In this document: positions 8,370 to 35,538 of the stretch, one piece after another | How positions within the stretch are numbered: the first letter of the stretch is position 1 | How the letters are laid out: the number at the start of each line of letters is the position of its first letter | NCBI GenBank assembly: GCA_903831255.1 | Contig: CAIKWZ010000005.1 | Coordinates: forward strand, 1 to 37,136 | DNA from: an uncultured Alphaproteobacteria bacterium | Lineage (GTDB): Bacteria; Pseudomonadota; Alphaproteobacteria; Caulobacterales; Hyphomonadaceae | Reading direction: 5' to 3' | DNA length: 37,136 bases | The notes under the pieces: model-generated | Told to the model about the DNA's origin: nothing | Database searches by the model: none | The model's input: only the letters and a program-made list of their open reading frames with translations | Position numbers and translations under genes: made by a program

Positions 8370-9715
8370 TGTGTCGGCGCCACTCGATATGTCCGCTTTT
8401 GATAGCACACGATTTGTCCGGTTTTCACCGGGGGGGTCGTTTTGCTTTCGGAGGTTCGTATGGCTCGGATCGTTGATGCGATCGGACGGGTGAGAGAGAA
8501 GCGGCTCAGCTGTATAGAGGCGGCTGAGTTGCTGGGGATGAGCGAGCGGCATTTTCGCCGTTTGCGGGATAACTTCGAGGAGGGGGCGCCGAGGCGATCG
8601 TGGACAGGCGTCGCGGTCGGCCAGCTTCGAATAAGGCCCCTGATGAGACAGCGAATTTTGTCGCAGACCAGTACCAGACGAAGCATTTTCAACTTCACGC
8701 CGAAGCATTTTCATTAGGCGTTGTGCAAAGCCCATCGGGAGTTTCGATACGGCTACACGTGGACGAAGTCCGTGCTCTACCTGCGCGGGCTGGTGAAGCC
8801 CTCAAGCAAACGCGGGCCCCTCCGCAGGAGGCGTCCCCGCTCAGCGCTCCCAGGCATGCTGGTGTTTCAGGATTGCTCGACGCACGACTGGTTCTGCGGC
8901 AGGCGTGCGCCCTGCGACCTGATCGTAACGCTGGATGACACCACGGGGCGTATCCTCTCCGCCTTCTTCTGCGAGCAGGAGGGGACTGCATCGACGTTCC
9001 GCGGGCTTGCTGAGACGATCGAGAAACACGGCCTGTTTTCAGCCTTCTACACCGATCGGGGCAGCCATTACTTCAACACCCCAGAGGCTGGCGGGTAAGT
9101 CGACAAGAATAATCCCACACAGGTCGGCCTGGCTCTGGCCCAGTTGAGGATCAACCATATACCGTCCTACTCGCCTGAGGCGCGCGGTCGGATGGAGCGC
9201 GTCTTCGGCACGCTGCAGGGACGCTTGCCGCAGGATATGAGGCTGGCCCGGTTCAACGATATCGAGACGGCGAATGCGTGGCTCAGGGACGTCTACATAG
9301 CCCAACACAACGCCCGGTTCAGCGTCGCGGCGGAAGAGGACGGATCGGCTTTCATTCCTTTCGTCGGCGATCTGGCAAACATTCTCTGCATCCATGAAGA
9401 GCGCGTCGTCTCGAAGGACAATACCTTACGCTACGAACGACGCATCCTGCAGATCCCGGAGCACACGCACCGCCGGCACTTTGTAAAGGCATCCGTCCGG
9501 GTTCAGGAATACCCGGACGGACGCCTCGCCATCTTCCACGGACCAAGGCTCCTCGCCAGTTACGAGGCTATGCCCGCGCCCAAGACCCATCCCGGAGAGA
9601 AGAGCGAGACTTCAGCCGCCTAAGTCCGCCCGGCGGCCGAACCCTCATCAGGGGTCAGGTAAGAGGCGGACATTTACCTTGCTACGAAAACCGGACATCT
9701 GTGGTTGTCATTGAC
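8370..9715 (+). mobile_element. IS1202-like (ISNCY) insertion sequence, inactive
   Basis: About 1346 bp lie between two copies of a 17-bp direct repeat. Imperfect terminal inverted repeats are visible. At the left, ATGTCCGCTTTTGATAGCA starts at 8389. The reverse complement of the right end gives ATGTCCGGTTTTCGTAGCA, starting at 9698. Each is followed by a second TGTCCG about ten bases on, so each end carries a pair of TGTCCG subrepeats that could bind transposase. The element holds one transposase gene in the plus orientation, broken by frameshifts and a stop. It sits in the gap between two reverse-strand GT2 genes. Confidence 0.88.
8460..9623 (+). pseudogene. IS1202-like transposase, broken
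   Basis: The gene starts at ATG 8460 behind GGAGG. The N-terminal helix-turn-helix is ARIVDAIGRVREKRLSCIEA followed by ELLGMSERHFRRLRDNF. Frame then shifts: RRRGRPASNKAPDETANF is in a second frame (about 8606), and KAHREFRYGYTWTKSVLYLR is in a third (from 8721). The DDE/rve core continues with LVFQDCSTHDWF, LIVTLDDTTGRILSAFF and FYTDRGSHYFNTPEAGG. A TAA at about 9097 then interrupts, where a Lys codon is expected. After the stop the same frame goes on with VDKNNPTQVGLALAQLRI, YSPEARGRMERVFGTLQGRL and a C-terminal region ending at 9623. At least two frameshifts and one stop make it non-functional unless heavily recoded, for which there is no sign. Confidence 0.88.
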
Positions 9716-9805: not shown

Positions 9806-10825
9806 TCAGTCAGCCTCAAAAGCACCCAATACGACCTGCCGCCTTAAATAGCTTATGGGGTTCCAGCAGAGGCTCGCGGCGATCTCCGCGACGCCAACGA
9901 CCCGTCTGCCGTTCATCTTCGCCCTCTCTATAAGTGCGTGGGGATAGCCCGCAAGACCTGCGCCGATACCTCGCCAGGTCGCGATGAAAGTTCCTCGAAA
10001 GCATCCCCTTACCAGAAAGGCGATCAGTCCCGCGGCCCATATAGGAAGGGTGAGGCACAGCAACTCCAAAGGCATATTCTTAAGATAAGTCCAGATACCG
10101 TTGCGAACACCATGAAACGTCGAAAACTCGCTTCGGCGTCCGGATATAGCCGAACCTGCATGCCGGATACGCGCTGTGGGAACGAACTGACAGCTCTCTC
10201 CCATCAAACGCAGCCGAAATCCTAAATCGACATCCTCATGGTAACAGAAGTATCTTTCGTCGAACCCGCCCGCATCAAGGAAAGCGTCTCTCGGATACAT
10301 AGCTGCAGCGCCGCACGGTGCAAAACAGATCCCGGCAGGCAGACATTGAGGGACGTGGTGTCCATGCCCCCCCCTCCACGCGAAGCCGTAGGCGAGATAA
10401 CAATCTCCCGCTCCGTCGAGTTGGTCGGGCGCGTCCATAGAGAGCTGAAGAGACGCTAGCATCCGATGGTCTGGACGACGTTCAGCAGCGCGGAGAAGTT
10501 CCTCCAGCCAATCGGGCAACGCCTCCGCGTCAGGGTTCAGGAGAACCAGCCACTCTCCTCTCGCCTGCTTCGCAGCCAGATTGTTTGCCGCCGCAAACCC
10601 GAGATTTCGATCGCTACGAATGATACGACATTCGGGAGGCAGACCGATCAGTCGGTCAAGAGACCCATCGGTTGACGCATTGTCGACAAGGATGGTCTCG
10701 AAATCCCGGAAAGTCTGCTCTGCTAGGGAATGCAGACACCCTTGGAGATAGTCACCACCGTTATAGTTCACCACCACGACCGTCATTCGGGGCGGCTTCA
10801 GATCTTCTGTCTCCAGACCGATCAT
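9806..10825 (-). CDS. Glycosyltransferase family 2, rhamnosyltransferase-like
   Basis: A 339-residue inverting GT-A glycosyltransferase. [20 protein letters not shown] (about 15-34) opens the nucleotide-binding fold, followed by [14 protein letters not shown] and the donor/metal motif [13 protein letters not shown] (about 93-105). Later [20 protein letters not shown] gives the ED-x-D acceptor-side signature common in rhamnosyl- and related transferases of O-antigen loci. Residues about 250-290 ([20 protein letters not shown]) are hydrophobic and probably associate with the inner membrane. The ATG overlaps the stop of the upstream aldolase gene as ATGA (10822-10825), so translation is likely coupled. 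Its 3' side faces the IS1202-like insertion. Confidence 0.92.
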
Positions 10826-11478
10826 TTCAAAATGGACTGCCCTGTCGATCGCCAGTCTTCAAGAAACGCCTGAAGGCCGGTGTCCGTCAGTATATGGCTA
10901 TAGAGCGCGTTGAAGATCTTGGGTGGAATGGTCGCGCAATCCGCGCCCAGAAGAGCTGCGTCTCGAACATGATTGATCGTCCGGATGGATGCGGCAAGAA
11001 TTCGGGTCGTGTAGCCATAATTGTCGTAGATCGTCCGGATTTCCCGGATCAGCTCCATCCCGTCAAGGCCGGCATCATCCAGACGCCCGATAAACGGCGA
11101 GATGAAGGTTGCTCCCGCCTTAGCAGCCAAGAGCGCCTGAACAGACGAGAAGCATAGAGTGACGTTGACCCTAATTCCATCCTGTACAAGGAGCTTACAG
11201 GCGGTGAGCCCAGCAGGGGTCAGGGGAAGCTTTACAACCACATTTTCAGCGATAGAGGCAAGATAACGTCCCTCCGCCAGCATGCCGTCGACGTCCGAGG
11301 CGACCGCTTCGGCGCTCACGGGCCCCGAAACAATGGAACAGATCTCCGCGATCGCCTCTTTCATGTCCCGACCGCTCCTCGCGATCAGTGAGGGATTGGT
11401 CGTGACTCCATCTACGAGGCCGCTCGCCGCTGCTGCGCGAAGGTCCCGCACGTCGGCCGAGTCAATAAAGATATCCAT
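10822..11478 (-). CDS. fsa: Fructose-6-phosphate aldolase / small-type transaldolase
   Basis: 218 residues, the usual length of the Fsa/TalC/MipB subfamily. [14 protein letters not shown] opens the barrel, [15 protein letters not shown] is the conserved second strand, and [15 protein letters not shown] carries the Schiff-base lysine. [30 protein letters not shown] and [11 protein letters not shown] complete the family pattern. The segment after NVTLCFS is closer to members acting as transaldolase than to E. coli FsaA, but one cannot tell aldolase from transaldolase by eye. Start: the ATG at 11478 is preceded by a good AGGGAGA site; an upstream in-frame extension is unlikely. The gene is translationally coupled to the following GT2 gene, which is odd for central metabolism and suggests precursor supply for the glycan, for example through sedoheptulose 7-phosphate. 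Confidence 0.88.
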
Positions 11479-11589
11479 CCGTCCCAATCTCCCTGTCCTC
11501 GTTGGTCCCGACCACCCGCAACGCGGATCGAGCGTCACGAAATCCCCGATATCCTGACTTCGTCGAACTCCTGAACGTCGTCTATCCTG

Positions 11590-12879
11590 TTACTGCTCAT
11601 CTATCCACTGACGCATAGGCATCTTATCCAGAGCGCCAGTTGACCAGTTGTCCGACAAAGCCATCACCGCACTTCGGCCCCGTCGGACAAGATCCGCCCT
11701 AAGTCTGGGGGAAGCCGCGAGGCGGCGAAGCTTGATCACGGCATCGTTTTCATCTGGTTCGGCCCAGAGGAGTTCACCTGACGGATAAACGCCAGTTTCA
11801 TCCTGAACCCGGATCTTGGCAAAATCGATCAGCAATTCGTCCAGCCCCTCCATGAACTCAAGGTTTCCTGACCAACCGGTAGCGAGCGGGGCGACCCCCA
11901 TCATGAAAGCTTCAGCCAGACTGAGACCGAACCCTTCGGACCGATGAGGAGACAAGAGAATGTCGCTTGAACCGATCAGAGAGACGACCTCATTTCTCGT
12001 CATCCGGGAGCTGACACATTCGATGTCCGGCCTCACGCCTATGCGCTTTTCAAGCTCTACCATGAAGGAACGTGCGCCCTCATGTGACTGACATTTTATG
12101 ATCAGGCGAACTGAGGTCGTCGGATCCGGGAAGGCGCGTCGATAGATCTCCACCGCGCCCAAGAGATTCTTTCGTACCCCGCTTGAAAGCAGGTCCCCCA
12201 TAACGAGGATCGTGGTCACGGAGTTGTCGGGACTGCCTGTGAGGGAACGATGTTTATCGAAGCGGCGTAAGCCTACGGGGTGAGGCATCCATCGCAAGGG
12301 AGTGCGCACGCCTGCGGATCGGATCGCCTCGAGAACGAAACGGCTCGGCGCCCATATCTCATCAAAAAGCTCGGCGGCGCGAACCCAGTCGTCAGGGATC
12401 GCCGGCAGCTCATAGGCCCAGTAGCCGATCCGGTAACGACCAGACCACCGTCGAGCTCCCAGTCGCGCAAAAAGAGCGATGGCTTCAGGCGGATTACAGT
12501 GGGTGAGCCATACTCCGCCTGGCCGGTCGAAGATTTCCTCGCGATTCGACCCAAAGGGTCGCTGGAACAGATGGCTGATGTCGTGACGATGCAGCTTAAA
12601 CCCTGCACCCTCAAGGCCTTCTGCGGTCAACCGCGCGGCCTCAGAAATACCTTTCGAATCCCCAAAGAAGCCTGAGACGATCAAAGGCCCCCGTGTATGA
12701 CCACCCGGCCCTCCTCTGATCTCCCTTAAAACCTGCCCCTCGTCCCACCTCCGGCGCCATCGGTTCACGTACGCACGGACGTCCTCCGGAACGCCGCCTC
12801 GCCACAGGCGAACGCCCCTATCCACCCAGCCTGTCGGGCGCACTTGAGGCTTCTGGGAGGTCCGGTCGACATCCGCCAC
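11590..12879 (-). CDS. Glycosyltransferase family 4
   Basis: The 429-residue product starts at GTG 12879, three bases after the preceding gene's stop and behind GGAAAGG. The first 60 residues are basic and not part of the fold. LIVSGFFGDSKGISEAARLT (about 66-85) is the N-terminal Gly-rich loop of a GT-B enzyme. YRIGYWAYELPAIPDDWV and EIWAPSRFVLEAIR follow the pattern of mannosyl- and related transferases. TTILVMGDLLSSGVRKNLLG begins the C-terminal domain. The SEGFGLSLAEAFMMG donor motif has both acidic residues (E-x7-E), unlike the GT4 at 5084. It is tightly spaced with the ligase-acyltransferase gene upstream, so the two are likely cotranslated. Role: one transfer step of glycan assembly on the cytoplasmic face. 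Confidence 0.9.
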   Translation of the reverse strand: MADVDRTSQKPQVRPTGWVDRGVRLWRGGVPEDVRAYVNRWRRRWDEGQVLREIRGGPGGHTRGPLIVSGFFGDSKGISEAARLTAEGLEGAGFKLHRHDISHLFQRPFGSNREEIFDRPGGVWLTHCNPPEAIALFARLGARRWSGRYRIGYWAYELPAIPDDWVRAAELFDEIWAPSRFVLEAIRSAGVRTPLRWMPHPVGLRRFDKHRSLTGSPDNSVTTILVMGDLLSSGVRKNLLGAVEIYRRAFPDPTTSVRLIIKCQSHEGARSFMVELEKRIGVRPDIECVSSRMTRNEVVSLIGSSDILLSPHRSEGFGLSLAEAFMMGVAPLATGWSGNLEFMEGLDELLIDFAKIRVQDETGVYPSGELLWAEPDENDAVIKLRRLAASPRLRADLVRRGRSAVMALSDNWSTGALDKMPMRQWIDEQ

Positions 12880-22401: not shown

Positions 22402-23229
22402 TTACAGAGCGAAGACAACCTTTCGACCCGCTCTTAGTGAAACTACCCCTGCAACTAACCACAGGGCGGTCGTCCATATCGCCACCGTCACAAGACTATC
22501 CTCTCTCCACATGGTTCCGTGAATCAAAGGATCCCGAAACAGATCCAGTAAAGGCACGACTGGATTTGCGTACTTGAGAATGATCAACTGACCACTGTCG
22601 AGAATAGCCCGTTGAATAAAGACCGGAGACAGAAAAAACAGCGCGTTCAAAACCAGCGCCATGATGTGCTGCAAATCTCGCAGTTGAGCGCCAAGAACGG
22701 AAAAGATAATGGCGATCGGGGTCAGGAAAGCCAACAATACGCCGAGGCTCGCCGGTATGAGGGCTAGATGGAGCCCCATGGGCGGCCAAACCTGTAGCGC
22801 TGTCATCAGGATTGCCAGGCCGCTTAATCCAAACAGAAAATTGACGAGGCCGGAGAGCGGAATACGTACCTGAAAGATCAGAAGTGGGATCCGCGCCTGG
22901 CGCAGATAGCCCGAGGCGCCAATGAGACCCTGAAGTCCGCCAGTCACGGTATTGGCGAAATACTCCCACACCAGCATGCCGCTGAAGACGTAAACTGCGA
23001 ACTCCCAATAAGCCTCAACCTTGAAAATCGAACCCCAAGCCCATGCGATGATCAACGAAAATCCCAGAGGCTGGAGAATCGCCCAGAGAATTCCAAGATA
23101 GCTCTGACGAAAGCGTGACCGAAGATCGGAGCCAACGAGATTTCCACAGAGATGACTGAAGCGCCACAGATCGACAAGATAGACAAAGACGCCGGGCAGT
23201 TTGCGGCTTCTATAGTTGGCGTAACTCAT
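22402..23229 (-). CDS. wzm: Polysaccharide ABC transporter permease (Wzm-like)
   Basis: 275 residues with about six membrane segments of the ABC-2 type. RFRQSYLGILWAILQPLGFS (about 39-58) is the typical N-terminal motif of Wzm/KpsM-like permeases. Further segments run from LVWEYFANTVTGGLQGLIGA to the C-terminal WTTALWLVAGVVSLRAGRKV. The start ATG 23229 lies 14 bases after the stop of the ATPase gene, so the two form one operon. The pair exports a lipid-linked polysaccharide (O-antigen or capsule) across the inner membrane. Confidence 0.92.
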   Translation of the reverse strand: MSYANYRSRKLPGVFVYLVDLWRFSHLCGNLVGSDLRSRFRQSYLGILWAILQPLGFSLIIAWAWGSIFKVEAYWEFAVYVFSGMLVWEYFANTVTGGLQGLIGASGYLRQARIPLLIFQVRIPLSGLVNFLFGLSGLAILMTALQVWPPMGLHLALIPASLGVLLAFLTPIAIIFSVLGAQLRDLQHIMALVLNALFFLSPVFIQRAILDSGQLIILKYANPVVPLLDLFRDPLIHGTMWREDSLVTVAIWTTALWLVAGVVSLRAGRKVVFAL

Positions 23230-23243
23230 GATCTAGATACCTT

Positions 23244-24101
23244 TCACGCCGAGGCCGCGGCGCTGGTCATGTACTCAAGAAAACGGGGAATAACCGCCTC
23301 AGGAGATCCGTCCTGAACAAGACGACCGCGATCCATCCAGATGACGCGGGTACAGAAGGACGAGATCAGGCCAAGATCGTGACTGACGAGAACGACGATG
23401 CCAGCGGTCTCGACGATCCGGTTCATGCGCGCACGAGCGCGCTCGGCGAAGCTCGCATCGCCTGCACCGAACACTTCGTCGATCAGAAGCACGTCCGGCT
23501 GAAACTGGGTCGATACAGCGAAACCCAGACGCACATACATGCCCGCCGAATAGGTCCGCATGGGCAGATCGATGAACTCACCTAATGATGCGAAGTCCAC
23601 GATCTCAGATTCAAACTCACGGATCTGTTTGCGTGAATAGCCCATCACCATCCCGCGATAGTAGATATTCTCTCGTCCGGTCGATTCTGGTTCAAAGCCG
23701 AGCGAAATATCGAGGAGCGTGCCAATCTGGCCGGTCACCGAGATCGAACCGGAGCGGAGCGGATAGACACCCGCCATGGCGCGAAGAAGCGTCGACTTTC
23801 CTGACCCGTTCGAGCCGATCACACCGACGCGCTCGCCTGCCTGAATGCTGAGGTCGAGATTAGTGATGGCATCGACAAACTGAACCTGCGGGGCTTTTTC
23901 CCGATGACCCAGCAGACCGAACAGGCTCGACTTCAGACTACCTCGAACAAAGGCTCCGATCGGATATTGAAGCGTCGCACCCGTGATCTCAATTGCGAGC
24001 GACGGTTTGTCCGCGGAAGGCGCGGCCCTTGGTTCAAGAGATGCGGCTTCATCACTCGATGAAATGACCTTGAGCTTTCCAGAACGCTTAGTTCCGTACA
24101 T
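23244..24101 (-). CDS. wzt: Polysaccharide ABC transporter ATPase (Wzt-like)
   Basis: 285 residues. Walker A GSNGSGKST is at 96-104, signature YSAGM at 184-188, Walker B VLLIDE at 204-209 and the switch His at 241. The protein ends 40 residues after the H-loop, so it lacks the carbohydrate-binding C-terminal domain of longer Wzt proteins. Recognition of the glycan end may lie elsewhere. The first 35 residues are a polar extension before SLAIEITGATLQYPIG. Start ATG 24101 has only a weak site. Upstream is the 610-bp gap to imuA, which should hold its promoter. Confidence 0.92.
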   Translation of the reverse strand: MYGTKRSGKLKVISSSDEAASLEPRAAPSADKPSLAIEITGATLQYPIGAFVRGSLKSSLFGLLGHREKAPQVQFVDAITNLDLSIQAGERVGVIGSNGSGKSTLLRAMAGVYPLRSGSISVTGQIGTLLDISLGFEPESTGRENIYYRGMVMGYSRKQIREFESEIVDFASLGEFIDLPMRTYSAGMYVRLGFAVSTQFQPDVLLIDEVFGAGDASFAERARARMNRIVETAGIVVLVSHDLGLISSFCTRVIWMDRGRLVQDGSPEAVIPRFLEYMTSAAASA

Positions 24102-33138: not shown

Positions 33139-35538
33139 ATGCGTCAGGCGGTCATTCTGGTCGGCGGTCGTGGAACACGGCTTGGCGCGCTTGCGCAGGA
33201 TACGCCCAAGCCCCTCATGCCGATTACGGGTGATATCCGGTTTCTGGATTACCTTGTTGAGAACATTGCACGACACGGCTTCGAGGAGATCCTACTTCTC
33301 GCAGGCCATCTCGCCCATAAGGTCGTTGAGCGTTACTCAGGTCGGACGGTTCGGGGGGCTCAACTTCATGTCATTCCCGAACCAGCTCCGGCCGGAACAG
33401 CCGGCGCCCTGATCCATGCCCGTGAGCGACTCGATGATGTCTTCCTCATGTCGAATGGCGACAGCTTTCTGGACATGAATTACCTGGCCCTGTCAGGCGC
33501 GCTTAAAGCCAACGTCGTCGGAGCGCTGGCTTTGCGCGAGGTTGACGATGCCAGACGTTTTGGCCGGGTGTCCCTTGAGGGGAACCATATCACTGCCTTT
33601 CATGAGAAGGACGCGTCGTGGACCGGTCCGGCCCTGATCTCAGGAGGGGTCTATGCGCTTCGTCGGTCCATCCTCGACCGGGTGAGCGAGCTTCCCTGCT
33701 CGATCGAGACCGATATCTTCCCTCAGCTTCTCGCTTCAGGTCAGCTTTCCGGCCTGAAGATCGACGGGTTTTTCATCGACATCGGTCTGCCCGAAACACT
33801 CCAGGAAGGCCGCATCAGTTTGCCCGACCGCATGCGCCGACCGGCCGTATTTTTCGACCGGGACGGCACGCTGAACGTTGACCACGGCTATACCCACAAA
33901 GTTGAAGATCTCGTCTTCCTCCCCGGAGCTATCGAGGCAATCCGGGCGGTGAACGATGCGGGAGCCCTTGCCATCGTGATCACCAATCAGGCCGGCCTCG
34001 CGAGAGGCCTTTACGAGGCCGCGGATGTCGATCGCTTTCATCGCGCCATGCAGGACCAACTTCGCGCGCATGGCGCGCATATCGATGCCTGGTATATGTG
34101 TCCGTTCCACGAGGACGGAGTTGTGTCTGACTTTCGGCGGAAGGGCCATCCGGACCGCAAGCCCGCCCCCGGCATGATCCGGCGCGCCATGCTTGACTGG
34201 CCGATCCGGACGATGGGATCATTCGCTGTCGGCGATCGCGAGCTGGACCGGGAGGCGGCCTCGAATGCCGGATTGCCTGGGTTCATTGTCCGGCCTGGCG
34301 AACTGCTGGGACAGGTTCAATCATCTCTGAGATCTCTGAACTCATCTTCGTCCCTGCATAACCTCTCACAGGAGAGCGCCGTGTCAGACTTTCAGCCCAT
34401 CATCGCCCGAGCCGCCCACGCCCGAGAGTGGCTTTTCAACCATGCCCTGCCGCTGTGGTGGCACATCGGTTTCGATCCCAAGGCCGCATGTTTCCATGAA
34501 CGCATTGCTCATGACGGCAGTCCGGTCATGCTTTCCCGACGAATTCGCGTTCAGGCGCGACAGACATTTGTCTACGCTATGGCAGGTCGACTTGGCTGGT
34601 CCGGTCCGTGGCGCGAGGCGGTTGAGGCGGGCACGAGGGTTCTGTTGGAGTGCGGACTGAGAAAAGATGGGGGAACGATTTATTCGCTCGACGAAAGAGG
34701 CAACCGCCTGGATGAGAGCAGAGATCTTTACGACACCGCCTTCGTCACATTCGCCCTAGCTCATGCAGGCGCCATTCTAAAACGTCAGGATTGTCTTGAG
34801 GCCGCCTCCTCTCTCGTGAACTGGACCTACGCCAACTGGTCGCACCCAAATGGAGGCTTTCTTGAGGGAGACATAGTGACCGTCCCTCCACGGCGTCAGA
34901 ATCCTCACATGCATATGCTCGAGGCGCTGCTCGCGCTTCATGAGGCGACTGGCGACGCCCTGGCCCTCAAGCGCGCCGGGGCGATCGTCGAGCTTTTCAC
35001 CACGCGCTTCATGAGTGAACGCTGGGGCGCGCTGCTGGAGTATTTCGACGAGGCCTGGGCGCCCGTCGCTGGAGATGAAGGCCGCATCAGCGAGCCCGGG
35101 CACCAGTTCGAATGGTCATGGCTCCTCGATCGCTATCGTCGTCTCTCCGGGGTCGATGTCTCGCAGGCCGCGCACCGGATTTATGTTCATGGCGAGGCCT
35201 ATGGCGTTCCAAGCGACGGATACACGGTTGATGAGGTATGGGCCGAGGGCGTCGTCCGAACGCCGACATCACGGCTGTGGCCGCATACGGAGCGCATCAA
35301 GGCGAACATCATCCGCGTGGAGACCCTTCGCGACCCGCGCGCGGCTGGTCACGTGGTTGAGGCGTTCGACGCCCTGATGACCTATTGCGACCTGCCCATA
35401 CCCGGCCTGTGGCGCGACCGAAGGCTTCCGGACGGATCCTTCCTAGAGGAGGCTGCGCCGGCGAGCTCTTTCTACCATATCATCCTCGCTCTCTCAGAAC
35501 TCATCCGGGTGGCCGATATGCTTGAGAGAGGCGGGTGA
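33139..35538 (+). CDS. Triple fusion: nucleotidyltransferase, HAD phosphatase, AGE epimerase/isomerase
   Basis: 799 residues with three enzymes in series. Residues 1 to about 228 are a sugar-1-phosphate nucleotidyltransferase (LVGGRGTRLGALAQDTPKPL, NGDSF at 106-110) like HddC. Residues 233 to about 390 are a HAD-IIIA phosphatase of GmhB/HisB type (FFDRDGTLN with Asp240 and Asp242, TNQAGLARG, RKPAPG, VGDRELD). Its Zn loop keeps CPFH, but the second Cys pair is replaced by GHPDRKP. Residues 391-414 are a Ser-rich linker. From 415 an AGE-type barrel follows, with the expected His in NPHMHMLEA, PGHQFEWSW and WPHTERIKA. Together they suggest dephosphorylation, NDP-sugar formation and sugar isomerisation or epimerisation, possibly for heptose- or mannose-type precursors. 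The main start has a weak ribosome site. An orphan AGGAGG lies 32 bases upstream, inside an 11-codon mini-frame. Confidence 0.88.
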   Translation: MRQAVILVGGRGTRLGALAQDTPKPLMPITGDIRFLDYLVENIARHGFEEILLLAGHLAHKVVERYSGRTVRGAQLHVIPEPAPAGTAGALIHARERLDDVFLMSNGDSFLDMNYLALSGALKANVVGALALREVDDARRFGRVSLEGNHITAFHEKDASWTGPALISGGVYALRRSILDRVSELPCSIETDIFPQLLASGQLSGLKIDGFFIDIGLPETLQEGRISLPDRMRRPAVFFDRDGTLNVDHGYTHKVEDLVFLPGAIEAIRAVNDAGALAIVITNQAGLARGLYEAADVDRFHRAMQDQLRAHGAHIDAWYMCPFHEDGVVSDFRRKGHPDRKPAPGMIRRAMLDWPIRTMGSFAVGDRELDREAASNAGLPGFIVRPGELLGQVQSSLRSLNSSSSLHNLSQESAVSDFQPIIARAAHAREWLFNHALPLWWHIGFDPKAACFHERIAHDGSPVMLSRRIRVQARQTFVYAMAGRLGWSGPWREAVEAGTRVLLECGLRKDGGTIYSLDERGNRLDESRDLYDTAFVTFALAHAGAILKRQDCLEAASSLVNWTYANWSHPNGGFLEGDIVTVPPRRQNPHMHMLEALLALHEATGDALALKRAGAIVELFTTRFMSERWGALLEYFDEAWAPVAGDEGRISEPGHQFEWSWLLDRYRRLSGVDVSQAAHRIYVHGEAYGVPSDGYTVDEVWAEGVVRTPTSRLWPHTERIKANIIRVETLRDPRAAGHVVEAFDALMTYCDLPIPGLWRDRRLPDGSFLEEAAPASSFYHIILALSELIRVADMLERGG
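34370..34383 (+). promoter_or_regulatory. Possible internal ribosome site and GTG start for the AGE domain
   Basis: AGGAGA at 34370-34375, five bases, then an in-frame GTG at 34381, which is residue 415 of the fusion and the first residue of the AGE domain (VSDFQPIIARAAHARE). This site is better than the one for the whole protein and may yield a free AGE enzyme. Confidence 0.55.

Follow-up and report, generated by a model that had tools for sequence, protein, structure and literature searches.

The window analysed here, a stretch of 37,136 nt from an uncultured member of the Hyphomonadaceae, contains a gene in which a nucleotidyltransferase (NT) module, a HAD-IIIA phosphatase module and an AGE-type epimerase/isomerase module are joined in one chain (Table 1). 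Gene context, fusions and absence patterns suggest that the AGE domain is a substitute sedoheptulose-7-phosphate (S7P) isomerase taking the place of GmhA, and that the chain covers steps 1, 3 and 4 of the GDP-heptose pathway, a reading that we consider likely. The earlier note on this DNA had pictured a single-chain assembly line. If the AGE domain stands in for GmhA, the chain would indeed hold three steps of one pathway, but it is not a self-contained line, since the kinase HddA is encoded separately in relatives and was undetected here.

Table 1. Features of the window, with the evidence for each assignment.
Feature	Position	Strand	Basis
Whole fusion gene NT-HAD-AGE, 799 aa	33139..35538	+	Open frame from ATG to stop; domain matches; intact homologues
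NT module, residues 1-228, nucleotidyltransferase, HddC / mannose-1-phosphate guanylyltransferase-like	33139..33822	+	PF00483, 85 bits
HAD-IIIA module, residues 229-400, heptose-1,7-bisphosphate 7-phosphatase (GmhB)-like	33823..34338	+	TIGR01662, PRK08942, PDB GmhB
AGE module, residues 426-796, (alpha/alpha)6-barrel epimerase/isomerase, proposed sedoheptulose-7-phosphate isomerase	34414..35526	+	PF07221, 208 bits; model; fold search
ABC-2 type O-antigen exporter permease-like (Wzm-like)	22402..23229	-	Named from sequence reading; no Pfam family at E 0.001
ABC transporter ATPase (Wzt-like by position)	23244..24101	-	PF00005
Transaldolase / F6P aldolase family protein, between two glycosyltransferase genes	10822..11538	-	PF00923, 204 bits

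The presence of three modules in one polypeptide, as claimed earlier, was borne out by Pfam and NCBIfam searches of the 799 residues. Pfam matched NTP_transferase at residues 4-222 (E 8e-24), the HAD-type family Hydrolase_like at 340-387 (E 8e-6) and GlcNAc_2-epim at 453-784 (E 3e-61), while it found no SIS_2 domain, that of the SIS-fold S7P isomerase GmhA, in the protein. The HAD module matched the HAD-IIIA model TIGR01662 at 236-386 above its cut-off (93.2 against 44.6 bits) and the GmhB models below theirs (TIGR00213, 109.8 against 149.6 bits; PRK08942, 123 against 178); its PDB relatives are the GmhB structures 3l8e and 2gmw (E about 1e-29). The NT module also stayed below the cut-offs of the HddC model NF049965 (93 against 300 bits) and of the mannose-1-phosphate guanylyltransferase model NF052502 (109 against 440 bits). 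By sequence, its PDB relatives include 6jq8 and 5xhw, titled 'putative 6-deoxy-D-mannoheptose pathway protein', and also mannose-1-phosphate guanylyltransferases. The link of these families to heptose and mannose made in the earlier note holds up. Motifs of all three modules are present: GGRGTR at 9, PKPL at 23 and NGDS at 106 in NT; DRDGTL at 240, TNQ at 282, DRKP at 339 and VGD at 364 in HAD; QNPHMH at 587, GHQFEW at 654 and YH at 779-780 in AGE. D240, D242, K341 and D366 of the HAD module, with its DxD and GD motifs, are invariant across six fusions.

The third module belongs to the AGE superfamily by its PF07221 score, far over the cut-off of 23.4 bits, and by its (alpha/alpha)6-barrel fold. 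The AlphaFold model of this part has a pLDDT of 97.7, and among PDB entries a glucose 2-epimerase fits it best (8h1l; TM 0.91 by query length). The full-chain model was set aside as a guide to domain arrangement, with a pLDDT of 73.7 and much of NT and the linker poor. H655 and H780 (H241 and H366 of the AGE domain, in the GH motif and the C-terminal YH) are invariant in 49 aligned homologues, and we take their equivalents to be the catalytic histidine pair of the superfamily. Cellobiose 2-epimerase, glucose 2-epimerase and YihS act on free or sulfonated sugars. They share the fold and the conserved His/Glu positions (PDB 3wkf, 8h1k, 2zbl) at 18-22% identity to the AGE module, whose PDB relatives by sequence include cellobiose 2-epimerases and N-acylglucosamine 2-epimerases.

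The fusion is conserved, yet rarely met. Five more genomes carry the three-part frame unbroken, at identities of 89% (L034, the same sequence as L005 of G094), 63% (L035 of G103), 58% (L036), 63% (L038) and 60% (L040). In a sixth genome, G115, it is apparently split over two contigs, L221 stopping just inside AGE and L044 starting inside AGE. These intact homologues rule out a frameshift or assembly join, and with it the sequencing error that the earlier note had named as refuting. Its impression that the three-part order is not standard agrees with the rarity in the genome survey, where the fusion count is a lower bound, as the pattern scan took in 80 of 101 relatives. When 32 NT-HAD proteins are placed on a tree, the seven fusions group in a single clade with a support of 100/100. 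How such a fusion can arise is shown by Sinorhizobium fredii, in which the NT-HAD and AGE genes share a frame and the NT-HAD stop TAG directly abuts the AGE ATG. Two-domain NT-HAD proteins from other Alphaproteobacteria (Niveispirillum, Azospirillum, Allorhizobium) match the first two modules and their order at 45-51% identity and lack an AGE domain; of the 20 cases tabulated below, 19 are non-fused, and 15 of those have either GmhA or an AGE gene of its own in the locus.

It is the gene surroundings in relatives that name the GDP-heptose pathway. Nine genomes of genus g5, together with Asticcacaulis, Novosphingobium and others, encode NT-HAD and AGE in two neighbouring genes, and most have a GHMP kinase less than 10 kb away (about 14 kb at L042 of G113). 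The Ensifer plasmid has the order AGE, NT-HAD, HddA, and on plasmids of S. fredii, Methylosinus and Allorhizobium the three genes lie within about 8 kb. HddA lies less than 10 kb from AGE in L006/L035, L036, L039, L040, L041, L043, L046 and the nine g5 loci L114-L122. HddA was the top NCBIfam match of the scanned kinases (L035, L036, L041, L114, L365, L368), all of them below NCBI's 600-bit cut-off, which no HddA match reached (0/22 and 0/385); by genome, kinases of this kind under the cut-off were found in G103, G107, G111 and G115, and a partial one in G109. Of 105 genomes from the window's family, 12 have NT-HAD, and 10 of these also have HddA (E < 1e-65); among the 93 that lack NT-HAD, HddA turned up once (Fisher p 2.5e-11, uncorrected for relatedness), two matches of E about 1e-5 to 1e-6 (G068, G070) being left out of the count. 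The sole genome with HddA and without NT-HAD is G099, where the kinase (11343-12383, within L188:5866-12383) shares its locus with an apparent GMD-like dehydratase and two transketolase halves; the 15.9-kb contig gave no NT-HAD, GmhA or AGE match. In the two loci tested, L035 and L041, neighbours best match models of GDP-mannose 4,6-dehydratase and GDP-fucose synthase, which would fit 6-deoxyheptose synthesis.

In Campylobacter jejuni, GDP-heptose synthesis follows the order GmhA, HddA, GmhB, HddC, according to an extract of PMC10680097. Set against that extract, relatives of the window genome resemble the pathway in showing HddA, GmhB-like and HddC-like proteins together, whereas the window genome shows the GmhB-like and HddC-like modules only; the proposed first enzyme would have the AGE fold rather than the SIS fold, and steps 1, 3 and 4 would be gathered in one chain. 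Under the scheme that we propose, the AGE domain would isomerise sedoheptulose 7-phosphate to heptose 7-phosphate in place of GmhA, as gene context suggests; a separate GHMP kinase, HddA, whose gene occurs in relatives and was undetected in the window genome, would phosphorylate C1; the HAD domain would remove the C7 phosphate, given its similarity to GmhB; and the NT domain, similar to HddC, would add GMP from GTP. The product may enter a surface polysaccharide as heptose or 6-deoxyheptose for export. Transaldolase reactions use or yield sedoheptulose 7-phosphate, and the transaldolase-family gene of Table 1 could affect its supply. The glycosyltransferase region of the window also holds a DDE transposase-like stretch (PF01609) at 1527-2150, and 9144-9623 reads like a transposase fragment but has no Pfam match.

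The key test concerned the whereabouts of GmhA, and loci with NT-HAD were scored for it and for AGE. In a class sample of 385 genomes, 31 matched the NT-HAD query at E 1e-40, and in 19 of these the two modules occur together, with G411 encoding them in adjacent genes and G367 truncated by a contig end. The remaining 12 were set aside: most of them match through a single module, the modules of G254 are about 330 kb apart, and the match in G285 crosses a stop after NT. With G119 added, 20 genomes were tabulated. The stretches inspected were mostly 20 kb, and shorter near contig ends (8.6 kb for G220). GmhA was called with a profile built here, which left a clean gap (at least 132 bits against at most 44); a SIS_2 match in G110 was rejected as GmhA by this profile at 33 bits. 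GmhA lay in the NT-HAD or HddA locus in 10 genomes (G119, G219, G225, G296, G310, G318, G367, G391, G411, G478), AGE in six (G000, G036, G163, G290, G400, G481), both in none and neither in four (G180, G187, G220, G281), giving p 0.011, uncorrected for relatedness. Two of the GmhA scores span longer distances: in G391 GmhA is separated from NT-HAD by about 21 kb that include HddA, and in G225 a pair of GmhA and HddA sits about 50 kb away from NT-HAD. Among the four with neither, G180, G220 and G281 hold GmhA elsewhere in the genome; G187 has no GmhA and has an AGE adjoining ManC.

The same pattern appeared in 40 NT-HAD genomes, GmhA being present in 2 of the 25 with AGE in the locus against 13 of the 15 without (Fisher p 8e-7, uncorrected for relatedness and inflated by close relatives). 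The two exceptions with AGE are G290, whose GmhA is on another contig, and G481, whose GmhA is about 350 kb off beside a second HddA; the two GmhA-less genomes without AGE in the locus, G116 and G187, both hold AGE elsewhere. Leaving out the 12 genomes of the window's family, the counts were 2/13 against 13/15 (p 4e-4, uncorrected for relatedness). Twenty of the 40 genomes came from outside the class sample and were found via AGE or fusion similarity, a bias favouring AGE. The gmhA model TIGR00441 passed its cut-off in 0 of 105 genomes of the window's family, and our own profile gave one clear GmhA there, in G048 (ten loci scored); as GmhA is scarce across the family anyway, its absence there says little alone. 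A sister-pair test of five pairs on the NT-HAD tree gave none in the same direction, two or three opposite and two or three with no difference, which is not significant.

ADP-heptose synthesis uses GmhA, HldE, GmhB and RfaD, and AGE recurs there as well. Plasmids of Gluconobacter (HAD, HldE, AGE), Gemmobacter (HldE, HAD, AGE) and Rhizobium CB3090 (HldE, HAD, AGE) carry the three genes in the orders given, and a Sulfitobacter plasmid has HldE, AGE and HAD with overlapping ends and rfaD adjoining on the other strand. On a plasmid of Rhizobium sp. CC-CFT758 (L377:4798-7470), AGE is fused N-terminally to the bifunctional kinase/adenylyltransferase HldE in a protein of 890 aa; rfaD and a HAD gene lie close by. 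On a plasmid of Agrobacterium pusense (L382:5998-10268), both HldE and AGE are spread over two frames, with the C-terminal part of AGE joined to HAD, reflecting either a broken copy or sequencing errors. The HldE proteins of Gluconobacter and Gemmobacter pass both curated domain cut-offs and just miss the full-length one (511 and 498 against 521). Of 22 records with HldE, the 11 outside Enterobacterales and Aeromonas (10 Alphaproteobacteria, 1 planctomycete) were inspected; AGE was found in six loci, GmhA in two (Azospirillum brasilense, Sagittula), neither in three and both in none. Three of the AGE loci were known before the search, and the eight newly inspected loci (AGE 3, GmhA 2, neither 3, both 0) gave p 0.46, which is not significant. 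The position of AGE beside or fused to HldE, where GmhA would be, independently supports its reading as a substitute isomerase. Separately, in Brevundimonas loci including L066:9965-11580, the genes for AGE and a GmhB-like HAD protein share 4 bases, and no HddA lies nearby; three of four tested genomes with such an overlapping pair (one titled Bordetella sp.) had no SIS_2 match.

An alternative reading, which we regard as unlikely, is that the protein supplies GDP-mannose, with AGE as mannose-6-phosphate isomerase, NT as mannose-1-phosphate guanylyltransferase and HAD in a side task. Of the 118 AGE rows collected, 30 have AGE overlapping, adjoining or fused to ManC (fused in L026, L127 and L348), and ManC lies less than 10 kb from AGE in two heptose loci (L036, 9.5 kb; L229, 1.4 kb), but the recurrent neighbour is HddA, not ManC, and no ManC-like gene was found in the window. 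The S. meliloti relative, 40% identical, is annotated Pmi, and the NT match to NF052502 points the same way. The GDP-mannose route employs a mutase, and a GmhB-like phosphatase is unexpected in it. In favour of the mannose reading, the window genome holds a single AGE at a threshold of E 1e-10; against it, the nine g5 genomes and G103 hold a second, though no ManC was seen near the second AGE in the five loci inspected. The association of AGE in the locus with GmhA absence and its recurrence in HldE operons also speak for the heptose step. On a tree of 49 AGE proteins, heptose-locus and mannose-locus members are interleaved and at least six label changes are needed, so phylogeny alone cannot assign the substrate; a single heptose-only clade was rejected (p-AU 3e-66). 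This interleaving argues for either repeated recruitment or enzymes active on both substrates. None of the residues examined distinguishes every heptose AGE lineage: R719/S777 was promising as a signature within one clade and does not hold up in the lineages of L048/L054/L060, L275 and L233. R719 is found in four heptose lineages and lacking in others, and it also turns up in two ManC-linked proteins (L069, L074) and two other proteins. Mannose-6-phosphate isomerisation and the heptose step are the same chemistry with one carbon more. The AGE proteins of this group probably derive from mannose-6-phosphate isomerase and may keep that activity; since relatives serve GDP-mannose, mannose 6-phosphate may also be a substrate here.

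It is also conceivable, but quite unlikely in our judgement, that the window protein is a decayed or re-used relic, the genus having lost HddA, with NT and HAD drifting and AGE alone retained for another purpose. HddA was undetected in the window genome by two profile searches and one protein search, and in its nearest relative G094 by one of each; two GHMP matches in the window genome were rejected as candidates, reading from sequence as galactokinase (C13) and IspE (C42), and SIS_2 gave no match there at E 0.01. The gap reflects either another kinase, a gene missing from the assemblies or a decaying route. The NT signature of G094 is eroded (GGRETR; PKP changed to PNP), and together with the undetected kinase this means that the route may be decaying here; the window copy, by contrast, retains all the NT, HAD and AGE motifs listed above. 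Ka/Ks between the two copies is 0.11-0.47 in the segments computed, which speaks against drift, although the comparison is imperfect given mosaic divergence: between L034:10001-12391 and the window gene, Ks is 0.06 in HAD and AGE 591-799, 0.35 in NT 1-120 and 1.3 in AGE 431-590, a spread that makes recombination or mixed assembly likely. In G093 a lone AGE gene (L037:9995-11176) is nested within the fusion clade, its NT and HAD modules apparently lost; this accords with a re-used AGE, and genome searches of G093 gave no HddA match and no clear GmhA.

Among known systems, the ManC-AGE fusions and pairs resemble the window protein in coupling an AGE domain to a sugar-1-phosphate guanylyltransferase, but they lack a HAD module and serve the mannose route, and their ManC presumably belongs to another subfamily than the NT module. 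Two such fusions, L127:9110-11353 (747 aa) and L364:2823-5027 (734 aa), form a GDP-mannose counterpart of NT-HAD-AGE. The bifunctional L-fucokinase/GDP-fucose pyrophosphorylase FKP, as described in an extract of PMC11982464, also fuses steps of a GDP-sugar route, with other enzymes and another sugar. In the open-access literature, the matches listed contained no description of the fusion and no link of AGE to heptose synthesis; the available portion of PMC12893687 has both 'AGE family epimerase' and 'heptose', used apart.

GmhA catalyses the first step of bacterial heptose synthesis and is, according to extracts of PMC11056994 and PMC5387315, a studied drug target with a zinc site. We lean towards the view that AGE-family proteins form a second, unrelated class of S7P isomerase that Alphaproteobacteria have drawn into GDP- and ADP-heptose synthesis on several occasions, with repeated fusion to pathway partners (NT-HAD; HldE in a Rhizobium), and that bacteria seemingly without the first heptose enzyme make heptose with AGE. 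If true, such a non-homologous replacement would explain heptose operons without GmhA and sharpen many 'AGE family epimerase/isomerase' annotations, and the fusion would offer a compact enzyme for in-vitro GDP-heptose production.
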